The notes under the pieces: generated by a model
Databases searched by the model: none
Seen by the model: only the letters and a program-made list of their open reading frames with translations
Told to the model about the DNA's origin: nothing
Made by a program: the position numbers and the translations under genes
Shown here: positions 1-36,753 of the stretch, in pieces
Layout: the number at the start of each line of letters is the position of its first letter
Position numbering within the stretch: the stretch's first letter is position 1
Source of the DNA: a virus
Direction: 5' to 3' (one strand)
Length of the DNA stretch: 36,753 bases
Virus record (IMG/VR): IMGVR_UViG_3300042564_000835
Location: 1-36,753 of that record

Positions 1-237
1 AACCTTATCACCGGCTACAAAGACTTTTAAAAGCTGAGGGAGAGCTGACTCAATAGTATCTTGAACGTCATACGATACAACTTGTGAACGACCTTCTTCT
101 TCGTTACCGAATGGTTGTCCTAGGTAGTAGTCAATCGCTTCTGCTCTATCATTAGACAATGCACTATCATTTACACCATAGGCTATATTCTCTTGCGCCT
201 CTATCTGTGCAATTATTTCCATGTCTTCTATATTCAT
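1..237 (-). CDS. Portal protein, N-terminal fragment cut by window edge
   Basis: This is the first 79 codons of the portal gene, the same as the start of the complete copy at 34482-36485. The ATG at 237-235 shares its A with the terminase stop (TGATG), which suggests coupled translation. Differences from the complete copy are synonymous here. The rest of the gene is missing only because the window ends. Confidence 0.92.
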   Translation of the reverse strand, partial: MNIEDMEIIAQIEAQENIAYGVNDSALSNDRAEAIDYYLGQPFGNEEEGRSQVVSYDVQDTIESALPQLLKVFVAGDKV

Positions 238-505
238 CAAACAATTCCTCTATTTGTATATTGTATTTTCTCTTTGCTCCATGACTCGTTCTTCATAGAC
301 TCAATAGAGGTACATAAATATCTGAACGCATCTGCTCCATGGCTGTATTCGTCATGTAGTGGCGCACCAGGTTCGTTAGTTGCAGAGTTTATACTTCTGC
401 GATAATTCTTTAAACATTCAACAAGTCTTTGTGCTGACTTATCAAAGTATATACGGTGGAAGTTCATACGTGCTAACTTAATACCAGACTCTATGTCTGC
501 TTTAG
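1..505. repeat. Left copy of near-identical 505-bp terminal overlap
   Basis: Bases 1-505 match 36249-36753 at 492 of 505 positions without gaps. Both copies span the portal start and the terminase C-terminus in the same frame. The overlap shows that the sequence closes into a circle or concatemer of about 36,248 bp. The mismatches show that the two ends do not come from one identical molecule. Confidence 0.93.
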
Positions 506-6984: not shown

Positions 6985-7371
6985 ATGCACTCAAATTTTC
7001 ATGATGTTGTTGACTTCCATAACAAATACGGTTTAGTTTATATTGGTAAAGCAAGGCCATTAGACAAAGATACCCAAGCATATCGCGTGCATTTTTTAGA
7101 AGAAGAGCTAAAAGAATTTATTCAAAGTGCTAATTTAGATGATACGGTTGGCATGGCAGACGCATTAATTGACATTGTATATGTGGCAATGGGAACAGCA
7201 TATATGATGGGGTTGCCTTGGCAAAAATTATGGAATGAAGTACATACTACTAATATGAATAAAGTACGTGCAACAAATAGTGAACAATCAAAACGTAAAA
7301 ATTCATTAGATGTTATTAAACCGGAAGGCTGGCAACCACCAAACTTAAAAGCAATTCTTGATGAACAATAA
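6985..7371 (+). CDS. MazG-like nucleotide pyrophosphohydrolase
   Basis: The 128-residue protein has the all-alpha NTP-pyrophosphatase signature: EExxE (Glu40, Glu41, Glu44) followed by DALID (Asp59, Asp63) and VAMGTAYMMGLPW. The C-terminus KPEGWQPPNL is usual for phage members of this family. These enzymes split dNTPs to dNMP and pyrophosphate. Next to a TS-fold enzyme and a dCMP deaminase, the likely substrate is dCTP or dUTP, giving dCMP or dUMP for the next steps, but specificity cannot be read from sequence. It is the first gene of the rightward unit, with AAAGG 8 nt upstream. Confidence 0.8.
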   Translation: MHSNFHDVVDFHNKYGLVYIGKARPLDKDTQAYRVHFLEEELKEFIQSANLDDTVGMADALIDIVYVAMGTAYMMGLPWQKLWNEVHTTNMNKVRATNSEQSKRKNSLDVIKPEGWQPPNLKAILDEQ

Positions 7372-7372
7372 T

Positions 7373-8179
7373 ATGACGTATCAACAGCAATATAAAAAAT
7401 TAGTTAAAGACATATTAGCAATGCCTGATATTCCTAATGACCGTACAAAACAAACTATACAACGTTATAACGGAACTATTGTATTAAGGCATGATAATTA
7501 TGGTATACCAATTGTTGGTGGCCGCAAAGCATATTTACATAGCGGGGCTGCTGAATGTGCATGGTTTTTAATGGGAACAAAAAATTGTGATTGGTTAAAT
7601 GAGCATACAGGTATGTGGAAACAATGGCAAGTTAATAATGAAGTAACTGCTGGATATGGATATAGATGGCGTAATGCCTTAGGGTATGACCAAATAGAAG
7701 CAGCTATTAATAATTTAAAAAAAGATAAAACAACGCGTCGTATTTGGATTAGCTCATGGGACCCAAAAGATGATTGCAATTTAAATGCTATTAATGTGCC
7801 TTGTCCTGTTGGGTTTTATATTGATATAACAAATAAAAAATTAAATATGAGTGTAGTAATGCGCAGCAGTGATGTTGCTGTAGGATTAGTATATGACACT
7901 ATTACATTTAGATGTTTGCAAGCTGTTATTGCTGCTTCTTTAAAAATTGATATAGGGTTTTTAGAATTTATTTTAATTAATGCACATATATATCAAAACC
8001 AAAAAGCAACAATTACAGAATTATTAAAAACAAATAATTTAAATGTTGAAATTAATATTCCACTATTAGAATGGCCATTAGATAAAGTATTAAAAAACCC
8101 AGATAGTTTTGTAAATAATTATAAAAAAATGCAACTATTAGTTCCTTTTCCTGCTATTAAAATGGAAGTTGCTATATGA
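7373..8179 (+). CDS. Thymidylate-synthase-fold enzyme, predicted dCMP hydroxymethylase
   Basis: The 268-residue protein has the ThyA framework: NDRT phosphate loop, AECAWFL, YGYRWR, catalytic Cys144 in VPCPVGF, RSSDV with Arg at Cys+20, and HIY at Cys+61/+63. The residue at Cys+31, which is Asn177 in E. coli ThyA and reads dUMP, is Asp175 here (GLVYDT). Asp at this place marks T4 gp42 dCMP hydroxymethylase, and Asn-to-Asp changes in thymidylate synthase shift preference to dCMP. I therefore predict action on dCMP, making 5-hydroxymethyl- or 5-methyl-dCMP. Start ATG 7373 lies 1 nt after the upstream stop; ATG 7358 is an in-frame alternative. It overlaps dCMP deaminase by 4 nt. Confidence 0.85.
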   Translation: MTYQQQYKKLVKDILAMPDIPNDRTKQTIQRYNGTIVLRHDNYGIPIVGGRKAYLHSGAAECAWFLMGTKNCDWLNEHTGMWKQWQVNNEVTAGYGYRWRNALGYDQIEAAINNLKKDKTTRRIWISSWDPKDDCNLNAINVPCPVGFYIDITNKKLNMSVVMRSSDVAVGLVYDTITFRCLQAVIAASLKIDIGFLEFILINAHIYQNQKATITELLKTNNLNVEINIPLLEWPLDKVLKNPDSFVNNYKKMQLLVPFPAIKMEVAI

Positions 8180-8607
8180 CAAATTGGGATAAAAGGTTTT
8201 TAAATATTGCTAAAGAAGTTAGCACCTGGAGCAAAGACCCGGATGCCAAAGTGGGTGCTGTAATTGTATCTGAAAGTCGTAGAATATTAAGCATAGGGTA
8301 CAATGGATTACCGGCAGCAATGCCTGATACTGATGAATATTTAAATTCAGATAATAAATTAGATTATATAATTCATGCTGAAATGAATAGCATTTATAAT
8401 GCAGGACTTGCTGGGGTGTCTCTTAAAAATTCTACAATATATGTATATGGCAGGCAAGTATGCCATGAATGTATGAAGGGATTAATACAAGCAGGTATAT
8501 CTAATATTGTTACTTATTCAACAGAATCAAGCCAAAAATGGCAAAAAAGCTGGGAAATTGCTCAAAATTTAGCTAAATTTGCTAATATTTCTATTAAAAA
8601 TCAATAA
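8176..8607 (+). CDS. Deoxycytidylate (dCMP) deaminase
   Basis: A zinc-dependent deaminase of 143 residues. HAE (His67, Glu69) and CHEC (Cys96, Cys99) supply the zinc ligands and proton shuttle. SKDPDAKVGAVIV and GYNGLPAAMPD are classic for dCMP deaminases. It turns dCMP into dUMP, feeding thymidylate synthesis. It is joined to the preceding gene by an ATGA overlap. If the neighbour consumes dCMP, the two enzymes share a substrate, as dCMP deaminase and gp42 do in T4; dUMP would then be methylated by the host enzyme. Confidence 0.93.
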   Translation: MTNWDKRFLNIAKEVSTWSKDPDAKVGAVIVSESRRILSIGYNGLPAAMPDTDEYLNSDNKLDYIIHAEMNSIYNAGLAGVSLKNSTIYVYGRQVCHECMKGLIQAGISNIVTYSTESSQKWQKSWEIAQNLAKFANISIKNQ

Positions 8608-9109: not shown

Positions 9110-9234
9110 AAGATATTATTAGCCAATTGCAATTAATAAATCAAGAGTTAAAAGATGATAATGATAAATTTGAACATAAAGAAAAAGCATTAAAAGAATT
9201 AAATAAACAGGAGAATATAAATGACAGTCTTTAA
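9097..9234 (+). CDS. Small coiled-coil protein, 45 aa
   Basis: MDELEDIISQLQLINQELKD shows heptad-spaced hydrophobics followed by charged residues, a short coiled coil. It overlaps the ERF gene start by 14 nt, so it may mainly serve translational coupling, or act with ERF. No family is recognised. Confidence 0.55.
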   Translation: MDELEDIISQLQLINQELKDDNDKFEHKEKALKELNKQENINDSL

Positions 9235-10781: not shown

Positions 10782-11156
10782 ATGGATATTAATACATTAG
10801 ATTTATATATGAGTTGTTATGCACATGCAGCATATCATGAAGCATCAACGCAACAAGAAATTATTGGTGTATTTAATGTTATACGTAACCGTGTTAAAAG
10901 TAAAAACTATGGAAATGACCCGTGTGAAGTTGTATACGCTAATTCGCAATTCCAAGGCATAACAGATGTAAATCATGAAGAGGTTGATAATAAAAGATAT
11001 TTACAAATAAAATATACAGCAATAGATGCTATTTATCTTAATAAAATTAAAAACCCAATAGGTAATAAACTACATTTTTATGATGATAGTATTAATACTC
11101 CAGCGGGTTGGAAAAATTGCAATATTAAAATAGGAAGGTTGGTGTTTTGTGACTGA
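10782..11156 (+). CDS. SleB/Hydrolase_2-type cell-wall hydrolase
   Basis: The 124-residue protein contains AAYHEAS, with the likely catalytic Glu20, then IIGVFNVIRNRVKS and DPCEVVYANSQFQG, the conserved pattern of SleB-like lytic transglycosylases. It lacks a signal peptide and is in the early region, far from holin and endolysin, so a role other than final lysis, such as local wall remodelling, is possible. Confidence 0.82.
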   Translation: MDINTLDLYMSCYAHAAYHEASTQQEIIGVFNVIRNRVKSKNYGNDPCEVVYANSQFQGITDVNHEEVDNKRYLQIKYTAIDAIYLNKIKNPIGNKLHFYDDSINTPAGWKNCNIKIGRLVFCD

Positions 11157-11382
11157 ACCAGTAGCATGGCTTTATCAAGAATTTTGTGTTAAATCAGGCG
11201 ACCTAAAGAAGTCTTATTTATGGTCATTTCACCCAAATCAGCTTTCATATTTAAATGATTTAAAAAATACAACTCATTATATAAAGATAATTCCTTTGTT
11301 TCCTGGTGAACCTGTAGAAGAATATAAAGGATTATCTAAGTATGATAGCAAACGTCTTGTAGAGGCTAACAGTGGATTATAA
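11149..11382 (+). CDS. Hypothetical protein, 77 aa, GTG start
   Basis: MTEPVAWLYQEF and the Pro-rich VIIPLFPGEPVEEY-like region recall small phage proteins with a VAWLY opening that are common and of unknown function. The GTG at 11149 overlaps the hydrolase gene by 8 nt. AGGAAGG lies upstream. Confidence 0.6.
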   Translation: MTEPVAWLYQEFCVKSGDLKKSYLWSFHPNQLSYLNDLKNTTHYIKIIPLFPGEPVEEYKGLSKYDSKRLVEANSGL

Positions 11383-11578
11383 ATGGAAAGGCACCCCTGA
11401 ATTAATTATTGGTATTATTATTGGGGCAGTAATTACATGGGGAATTATGGAGTATAAATGTACTATTAAACAACGCAGTACAAATTTAAAATGTATTCAA
11501 GGTGAATTATACGAAGAAATTAAACCTAATATCTTTGCTAAAAGTCACCTGGAATGTTTCGAGCAAACTAGACTATAG
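11372..11578 (+). CDS. Small membrane protein, 68 aa, GTG start
   Basis: A hydrophobic segment LIIGIIIGAVITWGIM near residues 11-26 is followed by a Cys- and Lys-containing tail. GAGG lies before the GTG. It overlaps the preceding gene by 11 nt. Function is unknown; the place after a wall hydrolase may be chance. Confidence 0.58.
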   Translation: MDYKWKGTPELIIGIIIGAVITWGIMEYKCTIKQRSTNLKCIQGELYEEIKPNIFAKSHLECFEQTRL

Positions 11579-11586
11579 GAGAAATT

Positions 11587-11793
11587 ATGTATACGCAAAT
11601 TGATGATTTAAAACATGCTAATTTAATTAAAGAGTATTTAGAACAAAACCCCGCAGCAAACCGTGCGGATTTAACTACTGCTTTAAGATTGAATCATAGA
11701 AGATTAATACAATTAGATAAAATAGGGGCAATTGTATTACCTGCGGTTACCCCAATGGGACAAAGAAATAAGGTAAAAACTGATAGATTATAA
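11587..11793 (+). CDS. Small helix-turn-helix-like protein, 68 aa
   Basis: LIKEYLEQNPAANRADLTTA followed by LRLNHRRLIQL reads as a short helix-turn-helix, as in MarR/homeodomain-like small regulators. AGGAG lies before the ATG. It could be an early regulator. No family is named with confidence. Confidence 0.58.
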   Translation: MYTQIDDLKHANLIKEYLEQNPAANRADLTTALRLNHRRLIQLDKIGAIVLPAVTPMGQRNKVKTDRL

Positions 11794-11853: not shown

Positions 11854-12240
11854 ATGACAAACATTAATAATATTTTAGATGAACGTGGCAGTCGTTATGG
11901 CGACTTTTCATCTAATGCAACAACAACACAATTAATAAAACAAGCAATTAATCTTGGTGATACTACCAATAAATTATCGTTTTATCAACGTGAAGCATTA
12001 GAAATGATTGCTCATAAAATAAGTCGTATTGTAAATGGCGATGCAAATTATATGGATTCATGGATTGATATTATAGGTTATGCACAATTAGTAATTGATA
12101 AATTGCAACATGATAAAGATGAAATTCAAGAATTAGTTAATACTTTTGAAGATGATATTACATTAAGTAATAATGATGAAAATAATAATGATATGCAAAC
12201 TACTGCATTTTTAGAAAGACTTGAGGATTTAGATGACTAA
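11854..12240 (+). CDS. DUF6378-like phage protein, 128 aa
   Basis: The N-terminus ILDERGSRYGDF and the block QREALEMIAHKISRIVNG with YMDSWIDIIGYAQL match a widespread phage family that I know as DUF6378, function unknown, all-helical and distantly like MazG. The C-terminus is acidic. The preceding 60 nt contain an inverted repeat TATCAT/ATGATA and a TATAAT, possibly regulatory. Confidence 0.72.
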   Translation: MTNINNILDERGSRYGDFSSNATTTQLIKQAINLGDTTNKLSFYQREALEMIAHKISRIVNGDANYMDSWIDIIGYAQLVIDKLQHDKDEIQELVNTFEDDITLSNNDENNNDMQTTAFLERLEDLDD

Positions 12241-28466: not shown

Positions 28467-29075
28467 TTATCTTGGTGTTACGCTTAATGTTGTGTATGGA
28501 TATGTTGCACCTAAATCACTCTTCTTAATATTCGCAATTGCTCTATCGTATAAAGCAGACCATGTAGCAATTCTTTGGTCGTTCATAAGATATGGTTCTG
28601 CCTCTGCTAGAGTTGCGTAAAGTAGAGCATCTGGATAGTATGCTAAGAACAAATTACTAGCTGTTGTGCTAGAGATAAATGTAGGTTGAGCATAATATAA
28701 AATTTGAACTGTGTAGCTTGTATCAGGACCTGGTGCAAACTTAAATTCTGTACCTAACATTGTAAAATAGTGAGGTCTGCCTGATAATGTTGTTTGACCA
28801 TCTCTAAAGAATAAGTCAGGTGACTGAAACTCTAGTAACACAGGTGGGTTACCTAACATGTGTATTTCTCTGACTTCTAAAAAGTCTGTAGGAAAGCCTA
28901 CTGTGCTATCTGTAGTGTCAGCAGTAGCGACTTTTAACATTCTTTCTGTTCTTAAATCACGAGTCATTCTAAATTGTGCCATCTGAATGAAGTCAGGTAT
29001 CTGTGATGTTAAGTCTGTTCGTGCTAAGTAGTTTTCTACCGTAGTTACAAACGAGGTATAGTTAGTAAACGCCAT
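28467..29075 (-). CDS. Head-tail adaptor (gp4/SU10-like), 202 aa
   Basis: MAFTNYTSFVTTVENYLAR and PDFIQMAQFRMTRDLR, then FPTDFLEVREIHM and YPDALLYATLAEAEPYLMND are the pattern of phage adaptor proteins that bind under the portal ring and seat the tail nozzle. Its place after the portal and capsid and before tail genes agrees. It overlaps the sugar-enzyme-like gene by 14 nt. Confidence 0.75.
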   Translation of the reverse strand: MAFTNYTSFVTTVENYLARTDLTSQIPDFIQMAQFRMTRDLRTERMLKVATADTTDSTVGFPTDFLEVREIHMLGNPPVLLEFQSPDLFFRDGQTTLSGRPHYFTMLGTEFKFAPGPDTSYTVQILYYAQPTFISSTTASNLFLAYYPDALLYATLAEAEPYLMNDQRIATWSALYDRAIANIKKSDLGATYPYTTLSVTPR

Positions 29076-29775
29076 CTAATTGTCCTTTTAGTCTATCCCA
29101 GCACTTGTCCATCTCATCTTTATGCCATTCACTAGCAGCTAATGAGCTTAACCATGCTGTTCTGTCAAAATATGTTAAGTTTTCTATGTCTTTAATGTTA
29201 TTGGATACAGGGTTTGCAGGGCTATAAGGTGAACCTATGACAGGAACACCACGAATAAGTGCTTCTACATCTGCGACACTACCAAAACTCACAATGACAT
29301 GAGCTTTTTCTAATGTTTGTTTAAAGTCACCTTCGCCTTTACGCTTAATGACAATCTTTCTTTCTGTATGTTTTCTAATCTCTTCTACCGTTCTGTCTAA
29401 CCAATTAGAAGTTTGGTAAATATAAGCTATCTTTTCTGGTGGAGGTAACACAACTACGTTTTCACCACTACGATACTCGTGAACTTTAGGTGTTTCTCTA
29501 TCTGATACACGCCAATCTGTGCAATGGTAGTTATTTACACAGAATCTAGCCCATTCTAATTCAGATGACCTGTGAAAGTAGCCATGGTCTATTAGAATAT
29601 AAGGTATGTTTTGTTCTCTACAGGCTATTTGTATCTTATCTGCACCCTGTAAATTACCTACTACAACTGGAATAGACTTACCATCCCATTCTCTTGTTAA
29701 AATACCCTTACAATGCTTTTGCAAGCGTTTTAAGACCTTATCTCTGCGTTCTATGCCACTCAGTATTAACTGCAT
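29062..29775 (-). CDS. GT-B-like / capsule-synthesis-like glycosyltransferase, 237 aa
   Basis: The C-terminal half shows a nucleotide-sugar binding pattern (VIVSFGSVADVEALIRGVPV then GSPYSPANPVS) like polysaccharide transferases of the capsule synthesis type. The N-terminal half has VVVGNLQGADK and IPYILIDHGYF. It is the third gene of a glycosyltransferase block inside the head operon and overlaps its neighbour by 38 nt, so the exact start is uncertain. Confidence 0.62.
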   Translation of the reverse strand: MQLILSGIERRDKVLKRLQKHCKGILTREWDGKSIPVVVGNLQGADKIQIACREQNIPYILIDHGYFHRSSELEWARFCVNNYHCTDWRVSDRETPKVHEYRSGENVVVLPPPEKIAYIYQTSNWLDRTVEEIRKHTERKIVIKRKGEGDFKQTLEKAHVIVSFGSVADVEALIRGVPVIGSPYSPANPVSNNIKDIENLTYFDRTAWLSSLAASEWHKDEMDKCWDRLKGQLDGVY

Positions 29776-30490
29776 CTAAAACCTGTTCTACGGTGATTGC
29801 TTTGCTTTTTAGAAGGCAATGTTGACATACGCTATCATAAGTCCCACATGGCTCTGAACCGTCATGTATATTTCTATGGGTGTCATATCCTAAGTGCCTC
29901 GGTGAAGTAAAACCTGTCCATATCACTACGGAAGGTATGCCTAATGCTGCTGCTGCATGATGTAAACCACCATCTGTGCCTACAAATAACTTTGCTTTGC
30001 TTAATACTTGTAATGCTTCTCTAAAGGTATTTGTTTCTTTCCACTTTGTATATCGTTTTACAGTAACATCACCTAACTGTAGCCATGGTAAGTCATGTTT
30101 AAATAACTCTTCCCAATCATGCCATGCTTTATTAACTGTGTGTGCATAGACTCTTTTAACATTAGGCTCTACTACTATGTAGTCCTTATCTATTTTATCT
30201 ATGACTTCTTGTTCTTGTTCACTAAAGTATATTTCGCCTACTCTAGGCTTATAGTCATCATTGAATAATAACCGACCATTCTTAGTGCCTTTGAGATATG
30301 GTCTATGACCTTGATAGTTTTTAACCCATACTACGTCTGTATCAGAGTTACTAGCCATTCTAGGATTGTTAGCAAATACTTGACCATCCCATGACATTCT
30401 AACGCCATCACCTAACTTAACCTTCTTACCGGTTCTTTCGTGAGCTTCTTTAGCATCACCTGATGCCATTAACCAATCACCAAGTCCCAT
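29738..30490 (-). CDS. GT9-like glycosyltransferase (heptosyltransferase type), 250 aa
   Basis: The opening GLGDWLMASGDAKEA and the segment LFVGTDGGLHHAAAALGIPSV are typical of the GT9 heptosyltransferase fold, followed by a Cys-rich loop (CGTYDSVCQHCLL). In cells GT9 enzymes add heptose to LPS core. Here the acceptor is unknown. It overlaps the TPR protein by 14 nt and clearly acts with it or after it. Confidence 0.76.
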   Translation of the reverse strand: MGLGDWLMASGDAKEAHERTGKKVKLGDGVRMSWDGQVFANNPRMASNSDTDVVWVKNYQGHRPYLKGTKNGRLLFNDDYKPRVGEIYFSEQEQEVIDKIDKDYIVVEPNVKRVYAHTVNKAWHDWEELFKHDLPWLQLGDVTVKRYTKWKETNTFREALQVLSKAKLFVGTDGGLHHAAAALGIPSVVIWTGFTSPRHLGYDTHRNIHDGSEPCGTYDSVCQHCLLKSKAITVEQVLDAVNTEWHRTQR

Positions 30491-31817
30491 TTAACTGTTT
30501 AGCCACTTTATTGATAACTTCTTTCCAAGTATCATTGTCTTGGTAGATAATTCTCATGTGACGATACCAAGGCATACTAGGTTGAGCATAACGCCATTGA
30601 TGCCATGTAGGAACTAGACACCATGTCTTTACTCCCATAGCTGCTGCACAATGTTGAGCAGTTGTATTTACACCTAAGACCATATCACATTCAGCTATTA
30701 ACGCTGCTGTATCATCATAGTCTTTTGCACTTGTTGCAAAATCAAAGTATTTAACACCGTCTAATTTGCGTTCTACGCTATAATCTAAACTGACTATCAC
30801 ATAGTCTTTGAGCTTTAATAATGGTTCTATATCTTCTTGTGTTAGTTCACGACCTTTAGCGTTAGTATGTTTAATACCACCTTTAGTCGTAAGACCTATA
30901 ACTTTCTTACCCCATGAGTCAAATAACCCACGCCACATAGTGCGTCTTTCAGGGTCAGCTTTTAGATAAGGTGTGCCAGGAAAGTCTTTATTCGTATGTC
31001 TAAAGAACTGTGGTAAACCACCTATGGCACATCTGTAATCAAACTTCTTATCTGCTAACCATTCAGGGCTATCTTCTTTACGAGTGCCATGAACTTCTGC
31101 TTCTGGAAAGCTACGTTTAAATAATCCTTCCAGTCTTGGGTCACAGTCTATATAGACTTGCTTACTAGAGCTAATAGCATCAGGAATACAGCTACCATAA
31201 AATATCTCATCACCTAGACCTTGTTCGCCATAGATAATAAGTGTTTTGTCTTTAGTGCCATCCCATCTTATTTCGTCACCATATACCCATTCTTTACGGA
31301 ACTTACCACCTAGTGACTTATGCCATTCTGCCCAACCTTTATCCCATTCACCTTTAGCTAAGTAAGTGTGTGCTAGGTTTAGTTGACCATGTAAGTCGTT
31401 AGGGTTACATTCTAAAGCCATCTTACAGGCTTTCTCTGCATCATCCCATTTAGATGTTTGTACTAGCGTTGCTGCTGCATTAGAATAAGCTAATGCGTAT
31501 GTAGGGTCTAATTCTGCTGACTTTAAGAAATACTTTAGAGCATCTTCATACATGTTTAGTTCATGTGCTGCACGACCTAGTGATGTCCATATAGCTTTAT
31601 TGCCTGGCATCTCTTGTAATGCTCTACGGAAGAACTGATATGCAAATGCAGGCTTATCGCCCATTAACCAGATATAACCTAAGAAGTTTAATGTAGCGGC
31701 TTCATTAGGATATTCTTCTAATACAGAATATATAAGTGGTAATGCTTCGTCATACTTTTCCTGATTGATAAGGTCATGTATGGCTAATTGTATCTTTTGT
31801 ATTTCTTGTTTATCCAT
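30477..31817 (-). CDS. TPR repeat protein fused to GT9-like glycosyltransferase, 446 aa
   Basis: Residues about 15-170 contain four to five tetratricopeptide repeats (for example ATLNFLGYIWLMGDKPAFAY and AYSNAAATLVQTSKWDDAEK). From about 190 a transferase domain begins (TLIIYGEQGLGDEIFYGSCI) and has VLGVNTTAQHCAAAMGVKTW near its end, equivalent to the GT9 sugar-nucleotide site. TPR-transferase fusions often glycosylate proteins, as O-GlcNAc transferase does. A virion protein is therefore a possible acceptor. Confidence 0.8.
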   Translation of the reverse strand: MDKQEIQKIQLAIHDLINQEKYDEALPLIYSVLEEYPNEAATLNFLGYIWLMGDKPAFAYQFFRRALQEMPGNKAIWTSLGRAAHELNMYEDALKYFLKSAELDPTYALAYSNAAATLVQTSKWDDAEKACKMALECNPNDLHGQLNLAHTYLAKGEWDKGWAEWHKSLGGKFRKEWVYGDEIRWDGTKDKTLIIYGEQGLGDEIFYGSCIPDAISSSKQVYIDCDPRLEGLFKRSFPEAEVHGTRKEDSPEWLADKKFDYRCAIGGLPQFFRHTNKDFPGTPYLKADPERRTMWRGLFDSWGKKVIGLTTKGGIKHTNAKGRELTQEDIEPLLKLKDYVIVSLDYSVERKLDGVKYFDFATSAKDYDDTAALIAECDMVLGVNTTAQHCAAAMGVKTWCLVPTWHQWRYAQPSMPWYRHMRIIYQDNDTWKEVINKVAKQLNGTW

Positions 31818-34492: not shown

Positions 34493-36485
34493 ACATCATC
34501 CCTGATTGTGCTTTGATTTGTGCGATAGCTAAATCAGTCTCAGCTTTTAATTGTGCCTTGAAGCGTTCTAGTTCTGCTTGAGCTGCTATCTTTTCACGTT
34601 CAATTATAACATCATTCTGTGAACGTACTTGCTCTTGTTGTAGTTGAGCTTGAGCTTTTTGTTGTTCAATTTGCAACTGACCTTGCACCATAATCTCTGC
34701 TTCAGAAGGCTTGTCTTGTTGACCTTCTTGCTCAGGTGTATTAGCTGGATTAACCCAGAACTCTTCAGGGTTCTTAAAGCCTGCATTCTGTGTAAGTTTA
34801 GCTAATGCGTTATATATCTTTTCAGGGTTAGTTAAGCCAACAGCAATAGCTTCTTTTTGCATATTTAAGATAGATGTTAAGTGAACCAATTGTTGGTCTT
34901 TATTACCTGCACCTAAGCCTACAGAGATAGATAAGTCTTTACGAGCTTTCCATTCTCTAGGGTCTACTTCTACCCATTTGTTACGTAGACGAATAATGTC
35001 TGGTTTAGTAAGTGTTGTTCTAACTAAATGATGCACAAGTTTAAATAACTCTTTAACGCCTGTCTCTGCAAATGTTCTAGCTACTAACTCAATACGTTGT
35101 TGAGACGCATTCATAATCTGTGCTACACCAGTAGCTGTCTTATTAAGACTGTTAGAGTCTAAGCCTTGGTTGTAAGCTGTGATACCTGTTCTCTTCTCTT
35201 TCATAGAGTCCATGTATTCAACCATACCGAATGATGATGCTGGTAGTGGTGGATGTGATAAAGGCATAATGCCTGAACCTGGGTCACCTTCTACACGAAC
35301 AATACCACCTGGACGTGACGTTAGCATATCGTCTAGGTTTACTCTGTCAGATATTGCATAACGACCATTGTTAGCTAGATACATATTATCTAACTGACCA
35401 CGAATAAGTGTTGACTTAATTAACTGAATGTCCATAGTCAAGTCAGCATAAGAACGACCAATATGTCTATGTGGCATTATCATAGGTGTGATACATGCGA
35501 AAGGTACATACTCACATTTCTCTTTATAAAGAACTGTGTTACCTAATACGACTACTCTATATCTTTCACCATCTAACTTAATGTATGTGTCTTTAACGAG
35601 TGCTTCTTGTGACTCAATAGCTCTATCATATTCTTCATCATAAATATCACGAGCATTAGACTCTTCTTCAAAAGTGTCTCGTAGGTCTGACATAATAGAC
35701 TTGATGTATTCTAATGGCTTGTCAAACGTTTCAGCAATGTCAGCTAACTGCATAACTTCTCTGTGTTGAACAAACTTAGCATCTTGTAGGTTAGGACCTG
35801 ATACCTCTACAGATATCATCATGTTTTCAGGTGCTACGTTATCAATGTATATTTCAGTCTTGCTTTCTGTAACCTTGAGCTTAACGTCATGTAACATAGG
35901 TTGCATAACTGTAGCTGGGTCTACACCATTCATAGCTGCTTGTTGATAGACAACATCCATGTTGACACTTGGGTCAGGGTAACCAGTATGCTCTAATACT
36001 TCTGTATTCTCATCTGAAGCCAACATTTGAAGTTGGGCGTCTGTCAACCCCTTGTATTCGTATTCTTCTTCTTCCTCTTCTTCTTCGGCATATACTTTTA
36101 CATAACCGTTCTTAGATAGTAATGCGTCTTTAAACCATACATAGAATACTTTGAAACCTTCGTTCTTTTCCATAACGACATGGTTTACATAATCTGTTTC
36201 TTGGTCTGCTGCTTCTTGGTCTTCAGGACCTTTAGGGTCAAACTGAACAACCTTATCACCGGCTACAAAGACTTTTAAAAGCTGAGGGAGAGCTGACTCA
36301 ATAGTATCTTGAACGTCATACGATACAACTTGTGAACGACCTTCTTCTTCGTTACCGAATGGTTGTCCTAGGTAATAGTCAATCGCTTCTGCTCTATCAT
36401 TAGACAATGCACTATCATTTACACCATAGGCTATATTCTCTTGAGCCTCTATCTGTGCAATTATTTCCATGTCTTCTATATTCAT
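34482..36485 (-). CDS. Portal protein (P22-like), 667 aa
   Basis: The 12-subunit portal ring is the gate for packaging and tail attachment. DDYYLGQPFG-like AIDYYLGQPFGNEEEGRSQV, then LPQLLKVFVAGDKVVQF and FVPCITPMIMPHRHIGRSYA-like segments are characteristic of the P22-type portal family. A run of acidic residues (Glu135-143 region) lies in the wing. The last 80 residues are a Gln/Ala coiled coil (LQIEQQKAQAQLQQEQ), like the P22 barrel. Start ATG 36485 overlaps the terL stop (TAATG). Confidence 0.92.
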   Translation of the reverse strand: MNIEDMEIIAQIEAQENIAYGVNDSALSNDRAEAIDYYLGQPFGNEEEGRSQVVSYDVQDTIESALPQLLKVFVAGDKVVQFDPKGPEDQEAADQETDYVNHVVMEKNEGFKVFYVWFKDALLSKNGYVKVYAEEEEEEEEYEYKGLTDAQLQMLASDENTEVLEHTGYPDPSVNMDVVYQQAAMNGVDPATVMQPMLHDVKLKVTESKTEIYIDNVAPENMMISVEVSGPNLQDAKFVQHREVMQLADIAETFDKPLEYIKSIMSDLRDTFEEESNARDIYDEEYDRAIESQEALVKDTYIKLDGERYRVVVLGNTVLYKEKCEYVPFACITPMIMPHRHIGRSYADLTMDIQLIKSTLIRGQLDNMYLANNGRYAISDRVNLDDMLTSRPGGIVRVEGDPGSGIMPLSHPPLPASSFGMVEYMDSMKEKRTGITAYNQGLDSNSLNKTATGVAQIMNASQQRIELVARTFAETGVKELFKLVHHLVRTTLTKPDIIRLRNKWVEVDPREWKARKDLSISVGLGAGNKDQQLVHLTSILNMQKEAIAVGLTNPEKIYNALAKLTQNAGFKNPEEFWVNPANTPEQEGQQDKPSEAEIMVQGQLQIEQQKAQAQLQQEQVRSQNDVIIEREKIAAQAELERFKAQLKAETDLAIAQIKAQSGMMYGG

Positions 36486-36753
36486 TAAACAATTCCTCTA
36501 TTTGTATATTGTATTTTCTCTTTGCTCCATGACTCGTTCTTCATAGACTCAATAGAGGTACATAAATATCTGAACGCATCTGCTCCATGAGAGAACTCAT
36601 CATGCAATGGTGCACCAGGTTCGTTGGTTGCAGAGTTTATACTTCTGCGATAATTCTTTAAACATTCAACAAGTCTTTGTGCTGACTTATCAAAGTATAT
36701 ACGGTGGAAGTTCATACGTGCTAACTTAATACCAGACTCTATGTCTGCTTTAG
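36249..36753. repeat. Right copy of near-identical 505-bp terminal overlap
   Basis: This is the partner of 1-505. Nine of the 13 mismatches lie within 22 bases (36590-36611), all but one silent. True terminal repeats of one molecule would be identical, so this is better read as an overlap between two variants. Confidence 0.93.
36485..36753 (-). CDS. terL: Terminase large subunit, C-terminal fragment (second copy)
   Basis: The last 89 codons of TerL, cut by the window edge. Compared with 237-505 the protein differs only by Phe for Tyr in HDEFSHGADAF, although there are ten base changes in this stretch including the stop codon. It is the same gene as 237-1493 on a circular map, from a slightly different variant. 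Confidence 0.92.
   Translation of the reverse strand, partial: KADIESGIKLARMNFHRIYFDKSAQRLVECLKNYRRSINSATNEPGAPLHDEFSHGADAFRYLCTSIESMKNESWSKEKIQYTNRGIV

Follow-up and report, generated by a model that had tools for sequence, protein, structure and literature searches.

A predicted dCMP 5-methylase with the thymidylate synthase fold in a 36-kb SU10-type phage

Phage Xp12 contains 5-methylcytosine in place of every cytosine, and infected cells make a dCMP methyltransferase (PMC8543423; PMC7653180). Xp12 has been placed in the genus Bosavirus together with DLP4 and AXL1 (PMC11946847, PMC9206674), and AXL1 resisted 26 of the 31 enzymes assayed (PMC9206674). The Xp12 deaminase is reported to turn 5-methyl-dCTP into dTTP, and its residue Trp128 was named as a possible contact of the methyl group (PMC12088426).

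In thymidylate synthase (ThyA), the uracil ring is read by Asn177, and an Asp at this position marks cytosine enzymes (PMC8670742; PMC5175136). According to work cited in PMC8670742, changing this Asn to Asp in ThyA switches the enzyme to dCMP, with 5-methyl-dCMP as the product. In the MetaGPA analysis, contigs with modified cytosine mostly carried Asp177, and PF00303 co-occurred with PF01503, PF00383, and PF14437 on cytosine-modified contigs (PMC8670742). In the structure of the T4 dCMP hydroxymethylase (gp42) with substrate and cofactor, Asp145 is the base activating the attacking water; this residue sits three positions before the catalytic Cys, the D145N variant is inactive, and an Asp or Glu at this -3 position has been proposed as the signature of the hydroxymethylase family. 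Moreover, T4 gp42 has no C-terminal tail and carries Val85 in place of ThyA Trp83 (PMC6400193).

Enzymes of this type, their Asp marker, and the cassette of genes have been described before. What is new is a deeply diverged predicted member of this group (identity of 37% or less), which keeps the ThyA-like Trp83 and tail and is found in a small SU10-type phage. The known Xp12-type system is most likely extended here to an unrelated, smaller phage.

Residues and fold of the 7373-8179 protein

The whole stretch of DNA analysed, referred to as the window, comprises the 36,753 bases of a virus record (IMG/VR record IMGVR_UViG_3300042564_000835). The sequence at 7373-8179 on the plus strand is an open frame starting from ATG and encoding 268 aa, with a match to PF00303 (Pfam, E = 8.7e-40). 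The protein was aligned with E. coli ThyA (EcThyA) and T4 gp42, the sequences of which were taken from their own genome records. The gene and its main codons are as follows:

7373..8179, plus strand: predicted dCMP 5-methylase with ThyA fold and Asp at the base-reading position (PF00303, residue table, tree, and model)
7793..7795, plus strand: codon of Asn141, the -3 residue relative to the catalytic Cys, equivalent to Asp145 in T4 gp42 and Leu143 in EcThyA (alignment; meaning of the site from PMC6400193)
7802..7804, plus strand: codon of the catalytic Cys144, equivalent to EcThyA Cys146 (alignment)
7895..7897, plus strand: codon GAC of Asp175, the Asn177-to-Asp switch (alignment)

The landmarks identified were Glu61, Trp82, Trp85, Tyr95, Asn141, Cys144, Pro145, Arg164, Ser165, Asp167, Asp175, His205, and Tyr207, and all the features of the ThyA superfamily (catalytic Cys, Arg, His, Tyr, and Glu58) were present; Glu61, Trp82, Tyr95, Ser165, and Asp167 are conserved as well. 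Counting from Cys144, Arg164 was found at +20, His205 at +61, and Tyr207 at +63, in register with EcThyA and T4 gp42, which bears out, in a full-length protein of the ThyA fold, what a sequence-only reading of this DNA had noticed. The same reading had pointed to an Asn-to-Asp change at +31: Asp175 indeed lies opposite Asn177 of EcThyA and Asp179 of T4 gp42, so that the Asn of dUMP thymidylate synthases is replaced by the Asp found at 179 (T4 numbering) in T4 gp42-type dCMP hydroxymethylases. The AlphaFold2 model of the protein had a pLDDT of 91.8, and ThyA structures superposed on it over residues 4-268 (Z about 30, rmsd 1.9-2.0).

Asp was invariant at the switch site across 49 related loci; the patterns of the viral scan included GLPY, which biased it towards Asp-type proteins, and frequencies are not readable from that scan. 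Since every protein compared in this clade of divergent phage sequences has Asp, Asp175 is, on these comparisons, neither a chance nor a sporadic change. In addition, the protein has Ser165 rather than Ala, which argues against a MilA-like enzyme acting on the ribonucleotide CMP (PMC5175136).

Relatives, tree, and gene order

The best phage matches in the protein search came from Achromobacter, Xanthomonas, Stenotrophomonas, Pseudomonas, Roseobacter, and Rhodobacter phages, with 29-35% identity. Nearly all relatives are annotated "thymidylate synthase", a label that hides the enzyme, as had been anticipated from the sequence. When viral_contigs was searched with the single protein, only near-copies of the window phage were recovered, and using the relatives' alignment as the query gave further loci; the scan of genome_contigs returned only Asn-type cellular thymidylate synthases. 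All inspected members of the clade had Asp at the switch and the NVPCP motif, or a sequence near to it, at the Cys.

A first tree that contained T4 gp42 and a presumed dUMP hydroxymethylase had long branches, and the tree was rebuilt without both and with the Asp column masked. In this masked tree, a 100/100 split set the window protein and 30 Xp12-type proteins apart from the cellular thymidylate synthases, from T2 td, and from two further Asp-type groups with Leu at -3. The clade around the window protein is made up of Bosavirus/Pamexvirus/Steinhofvirus-type phages, with DLP4 and other Bosavirus proteins standing in for Xp12, whose own sequence is outside the tree; a published Xp12 primer had no exact match in viral_contigs. 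The window protein was sister to AMA2/ART (87/87) on a long branch (1.7), and its identity to any clade member was at most 37%.

Two further large groups of Asp-type phage thymidylate synthase (TS) proteins were also observed in viral_contigs (loci L064-L100 and L018, e.g., L072 and L082), with Leu at -3 and Tyr or His at 147. No recognisable MazG or deaminase was present near these genes, and the His147 forms were ThyA-like save for the Asp.

The MazG - TS - dCMP deaminase gene order of the Xp12-type clade was also found in the window, the two neighbours being those described by the sequence-only reading:

6985..7371, plus strand: MazG/PRA-PH-like nucleotide pyrophosphohydrolase, proposed to convert dCTP (or dNTP) to dCMP (PF01503, E = 7.4e-13; phrog_671, 1.1e-27)
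8176..8607, plus strand: dCMP deaminase-family protein, overlapping the TS stop codon (PF00383, 1.9e-18; PF14437, 3.3e-13; phrog_174, 5.2e-40)
11854..12240, plus strand: DUF6378 protein, possible accessory (PF19905, 4.3e-06; tblastn 1e-9 to AMA2_21; alignment)

The three adjacent genes of the window carry exactly the domains that co-occurred in MetaGPA, namely PF01503, PF00303, and PF00383/PF14437. Among the 49 clade loci, some of which are copies of one isolate, a nearby match was found for MazG in all 49, for the deaminase in 47, and for a DHFR-like gene in 37; a need for DHFR fits methylation, because methylation yields dihydrofolate. The window MazG shares the motif KPEGWxxP with those of DLP4, AMA2, and RcSimone-Hastad, the corresponding motif being KPKGWxxP in Votkovvirus. 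Trp122 of the deaminase aligned with DLP4 Trp128, a weak sign since the same Trp is present in other aligned relatives too. In Achromobacter phage AMA2, a DUF6378 homologue sits between MazG and TS, and the DUF6378 gene of the window may be a displaced fourth part of the cassette.

Methylation, hydroxymethylation, and the proposed pathway

Taken with the switch residue, these comparisons make dCMP a well-supported candidate substrate for the 7373-8179 enzyme, and they likewise favour a MazG-like feeder and probable modification of cytosine, as the earlier reading had put forward. That reading had gone on to name the enzyme a dCMP hydroxymethylase, and here our analysis departs from it. At -3, the window protein has Asn where T4 gp42 has Asp in the same alignment, and so lacks the Asp or Glu of the hydroxymethylase signature; Asp likewise occupies this position in a putative dUMP hydroxymethylase from Pseudomonas phage Max. 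Trp85 is the equivalent of EcThyA Trp83 and is kept, whereas T4 gp42 has Val. The tail missing from T4 gp42 is kept as well: the window protein ends in KMEVAI and EcThyA in KAPVAI, and the model aligned to ThyA through the final residues, tail included. T4 dCH was not among the best 50 structural matches of the model, an absence that is no evidence by itself.

Because of Asn141 at -3, the kept Trp83 and tail, and a clade composed of Xp12-group phages, a methyl product is favoured over a hydroxymethyl one, and we consider it likely that the gene encodes an Xp12-type dCMP 5-methylase, which would act on dCMP with methylene-tetrahydrofolate by hydride transfer. Several observations count against this reading. 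The Asn at -3 also differs from the Leu of thymidylate synthase, so that hydride transfer is not guaranteed by this residue, and the low identity and long branch noted above point the same way. Moreover, no DHFR was found in the window with PF00186 (a profile that misses many divergent DHFR genes found by tblastn with phage DHFR), nor was any thymidylate-kinase family protein or family-A DNA polymerase found there, so that host enzymes would have to cope.

The strongest of the alternatives is a T4-like dCMP hydroxymethylase, in which water would attack the exocyclic methylene intermediate to give 5-hydroxymethyl-dCMP, perhaps glycosylated by a GT8-family protein. Asp175 and the MazG feeder are compatible with this, a GT8-like protein is encoded at 1812-2606 on the minus strand (PF01501, 1.2e-05), and similar cassettes were seen together with a 5hmC carbamoyltransferase in MetaGPA (PMC8670742). 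We nevertheless consider this alternative unlikely, in view of the Asn at the water-activating site, the Trp83 and the tail, and the position of the protein in a clade of 5mC phages; in addition, a search of the window and 35 related records for carbamoyltransferases (PF02543) gave no match. Phage MW202512 encodes a homologue of the GT8 protein (43% identity), which lies in a cluster of virion genes that also codes for TPR and FkbM-like proteins. A possible connection of the GT8 protein with 5hmC was weighed but dropped, since TS, MazG, and the deaminase have no match in MW202512. Of the two modified bases that the sequence-only reading had offered for the phage DNA, 5-methylcytosine is the better supported.

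No C5 DNA methyltransferase (PF00145) was found in the same 36 records, so that methylation is not obviously carried out at the DNA level. The Tet_JBP search gave no match in any record, controls included, and was uninformative.

For the 5-methylase, we propose a pathway in which the MazG-like protein would convert dCTP to dCMP, feeding the TS-fold enzyme and depleting dCTP. Judging from its residues and clade, the TS-fold enzyme would then combine dCMP with methylene-THF to form 5-methyl-dCMP. As no phage kinase or polymerase was found, host kinases would raise 5-methyl-dCMP to 5-methyl-dCTP and the host DNA polymerase would place it opposite G. By analogy with Xp12, the deaminase would turn part of the cytosine nucleotides, probably including methylated ones, into thymidine nucleotides, with 5-methyl-dCMP (or dCMP) as the proposed substrate and dTMP (or dUMP) as the product. 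The predicted outcome, in both base and extent, would be a phage DNA in which most or all cytosine is 5-methylcytosine and which resists many restriction enzymes. We put the replacement of essentially all virion cytosine at roughly an even chance. More tentative, and somewhat below even, is the complete scheme, in which a phage of ~36 kb, with no polymerase, kinase, or DHFR gene found, would swap all its cytosine for 5-methylcytosine by means of a three-gene cassette and host enzymes, the deaminase turning surplus methylated nucleotide into thymidylate.

The same genes could serve thymidylate supply only: methylation of dCMP followed by deamination to dTMP would avoid dUMP as an intermediate and leave little 5-methylcytosine in DNA. 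The deaminase that follows the TS gene in 47 of the 49 clade loci would fit this role, as would the lack of any kinase for 5-methyl-dCMP found in the window phage, and in Xp12 the methylated cytosine nucleotide is reportedly a source of thymidine nucleotides (PMC12088426; also indicated by the title of Kuo 1982). Against this, the DNA of known group members is either fully 5mC or resistant to restriction, with both outcomes occurring together in Xp12, and we regard supply alone as quite improbable. Least probable is an ordinary dUMP thymidylate synthase despite the Asp, which would agree with the full ThyA fold and tail and with a deaminase able to supply dUMP, but not with the role of position 177 in telling uracil from cytosine enzymes (PMC8670742; PMC5175136) or with the invariance of Asp in the clade.

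The phage genome and comparison with known systems

The first and last 505 bases of the window (1-505 and 36249-36753) matched with 13 differences, mostly clustered at 342-378. The genome is probably closed or terminally overlapping, of about 36.2 kb, and joined from close variants; its IMG/VR class is linear. The portal and major capsid proteins belong to SU10 families (PF23899 and PF17236), and the large terminase to PF04466. Scanned proteins included a DnaB-like helicase, a CHC2 zinc finger primase fragment, an ERF annealing protein, a YqaJ exonuclease, an SSB, and a DnaQ-type exonuclease, and no tRNA was found in the window. The GT8-like gene adjoins the small terminase region, and homologues were found in Pelagibacter phage Mosig, a Synechococcus phage, and Caulobacter phages. 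Between the capsid and tail genes, adjacent genes for a TPR protein, a GT9-like protein, and an unnamed protein (29062-31817, minus strand) resemble a gene cluster for glycans of the virion or surface, and MW202512 shares the TPR protein.

Among the phages compared, the most similar was MW202481 (41.2 kb, circular, from a freshwater spring), with identities of 91% for the lysozyme, 81% for the stabilisation protein, 70% for the exonuclease, and 69% for ERF. MazG, TS, and deaminase had no match in MW202481. In the window, the cassette is flanked by replication genes that run leftward, up to 6707, and by ERF, a rightward gene at 9221; MW202481 has small genes only at the corresponding place. The base composition of the cassette is no different from that of the neighbouring early genes. 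As the closest phage overall is without it, the cassette looks like a module gained in the window phage or lost in MW202481. Annotations of related SU10-type phages include methyltransferases acting at the DNA level, one C5-type and one MT-A70-like (MW202462, 32248-32988, locus L185; Venkman, 11091-11672, locus L181), whereas the window phage carries a nucleotide-level cassette.

If the proposed reading is correct, nucleotide-level full cytosine methylation would reach beyond the 46-65-kb Xp12 and Achromobacter groups, as a compact module that also moves into small phages of aquatic habitats with capsids of the SU10 type. Annotation would label these genomes "thymidylate synthase", and short-read metagenomes would show their DNA as ordinary, so that counts of phages with modified DNA would be too low. 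Asp-type phage enzymes could be sorted simply into methylases and hydroxymethylases by their -3 residue.

T4 gp42 shares the fold, the Cys, and the Asp at +31 with the window protein; it differs in having Asp at -3, Val at 83, and no tail, where the window has Asn, Trp, and the ThyA tail. Votkovvirus S28C10 (AP013540, 40.9 kb), a small marine phage of the Autographiviridae, resembles the window in its Asp177, MazG, and dCMP deaminase, and is a small-genome precedent for an Asp-type enzyme of another clade: it and related Asp-type TS proteins have Leu at -3, Tyr at 147, and an adjoining dTMP kinase, and form a separate clade. The suggestion that such an enzyme would be unusual for the genome size thus holds only in part, being further weakened by 46-50 kb Achromobacter phages with the same TS clade. 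The Achromobacter phages AMA2, ART, and JWX (Steinhofvirus group) are nearest in the tree, also possess the DUF6378 gene, and also gave no DHFR match; they differ in their records of 46-95 kb and in the position of DUF6378, which is inside the cassette rather than 3 kb away as in the window. Finally, DLP4, AXL1, DoCa10, PaMx28/74, and phiH1, the relatives of Xp12 (Bosavirus), resemble the window in Asp177, Pro after the Cys (NVPCP), Asn at -3, gene order, and clade. The Xp12-type clade has Phe83 and PEVxE-type ends, whereas the window protein has Trp83 and a C-terminal VAI, and the window phage, with SU10-type capsid genes, 36 kb, 30-39% GC, and no DHFR found, differs from AXL1, with about 64 kb and 67% GC.
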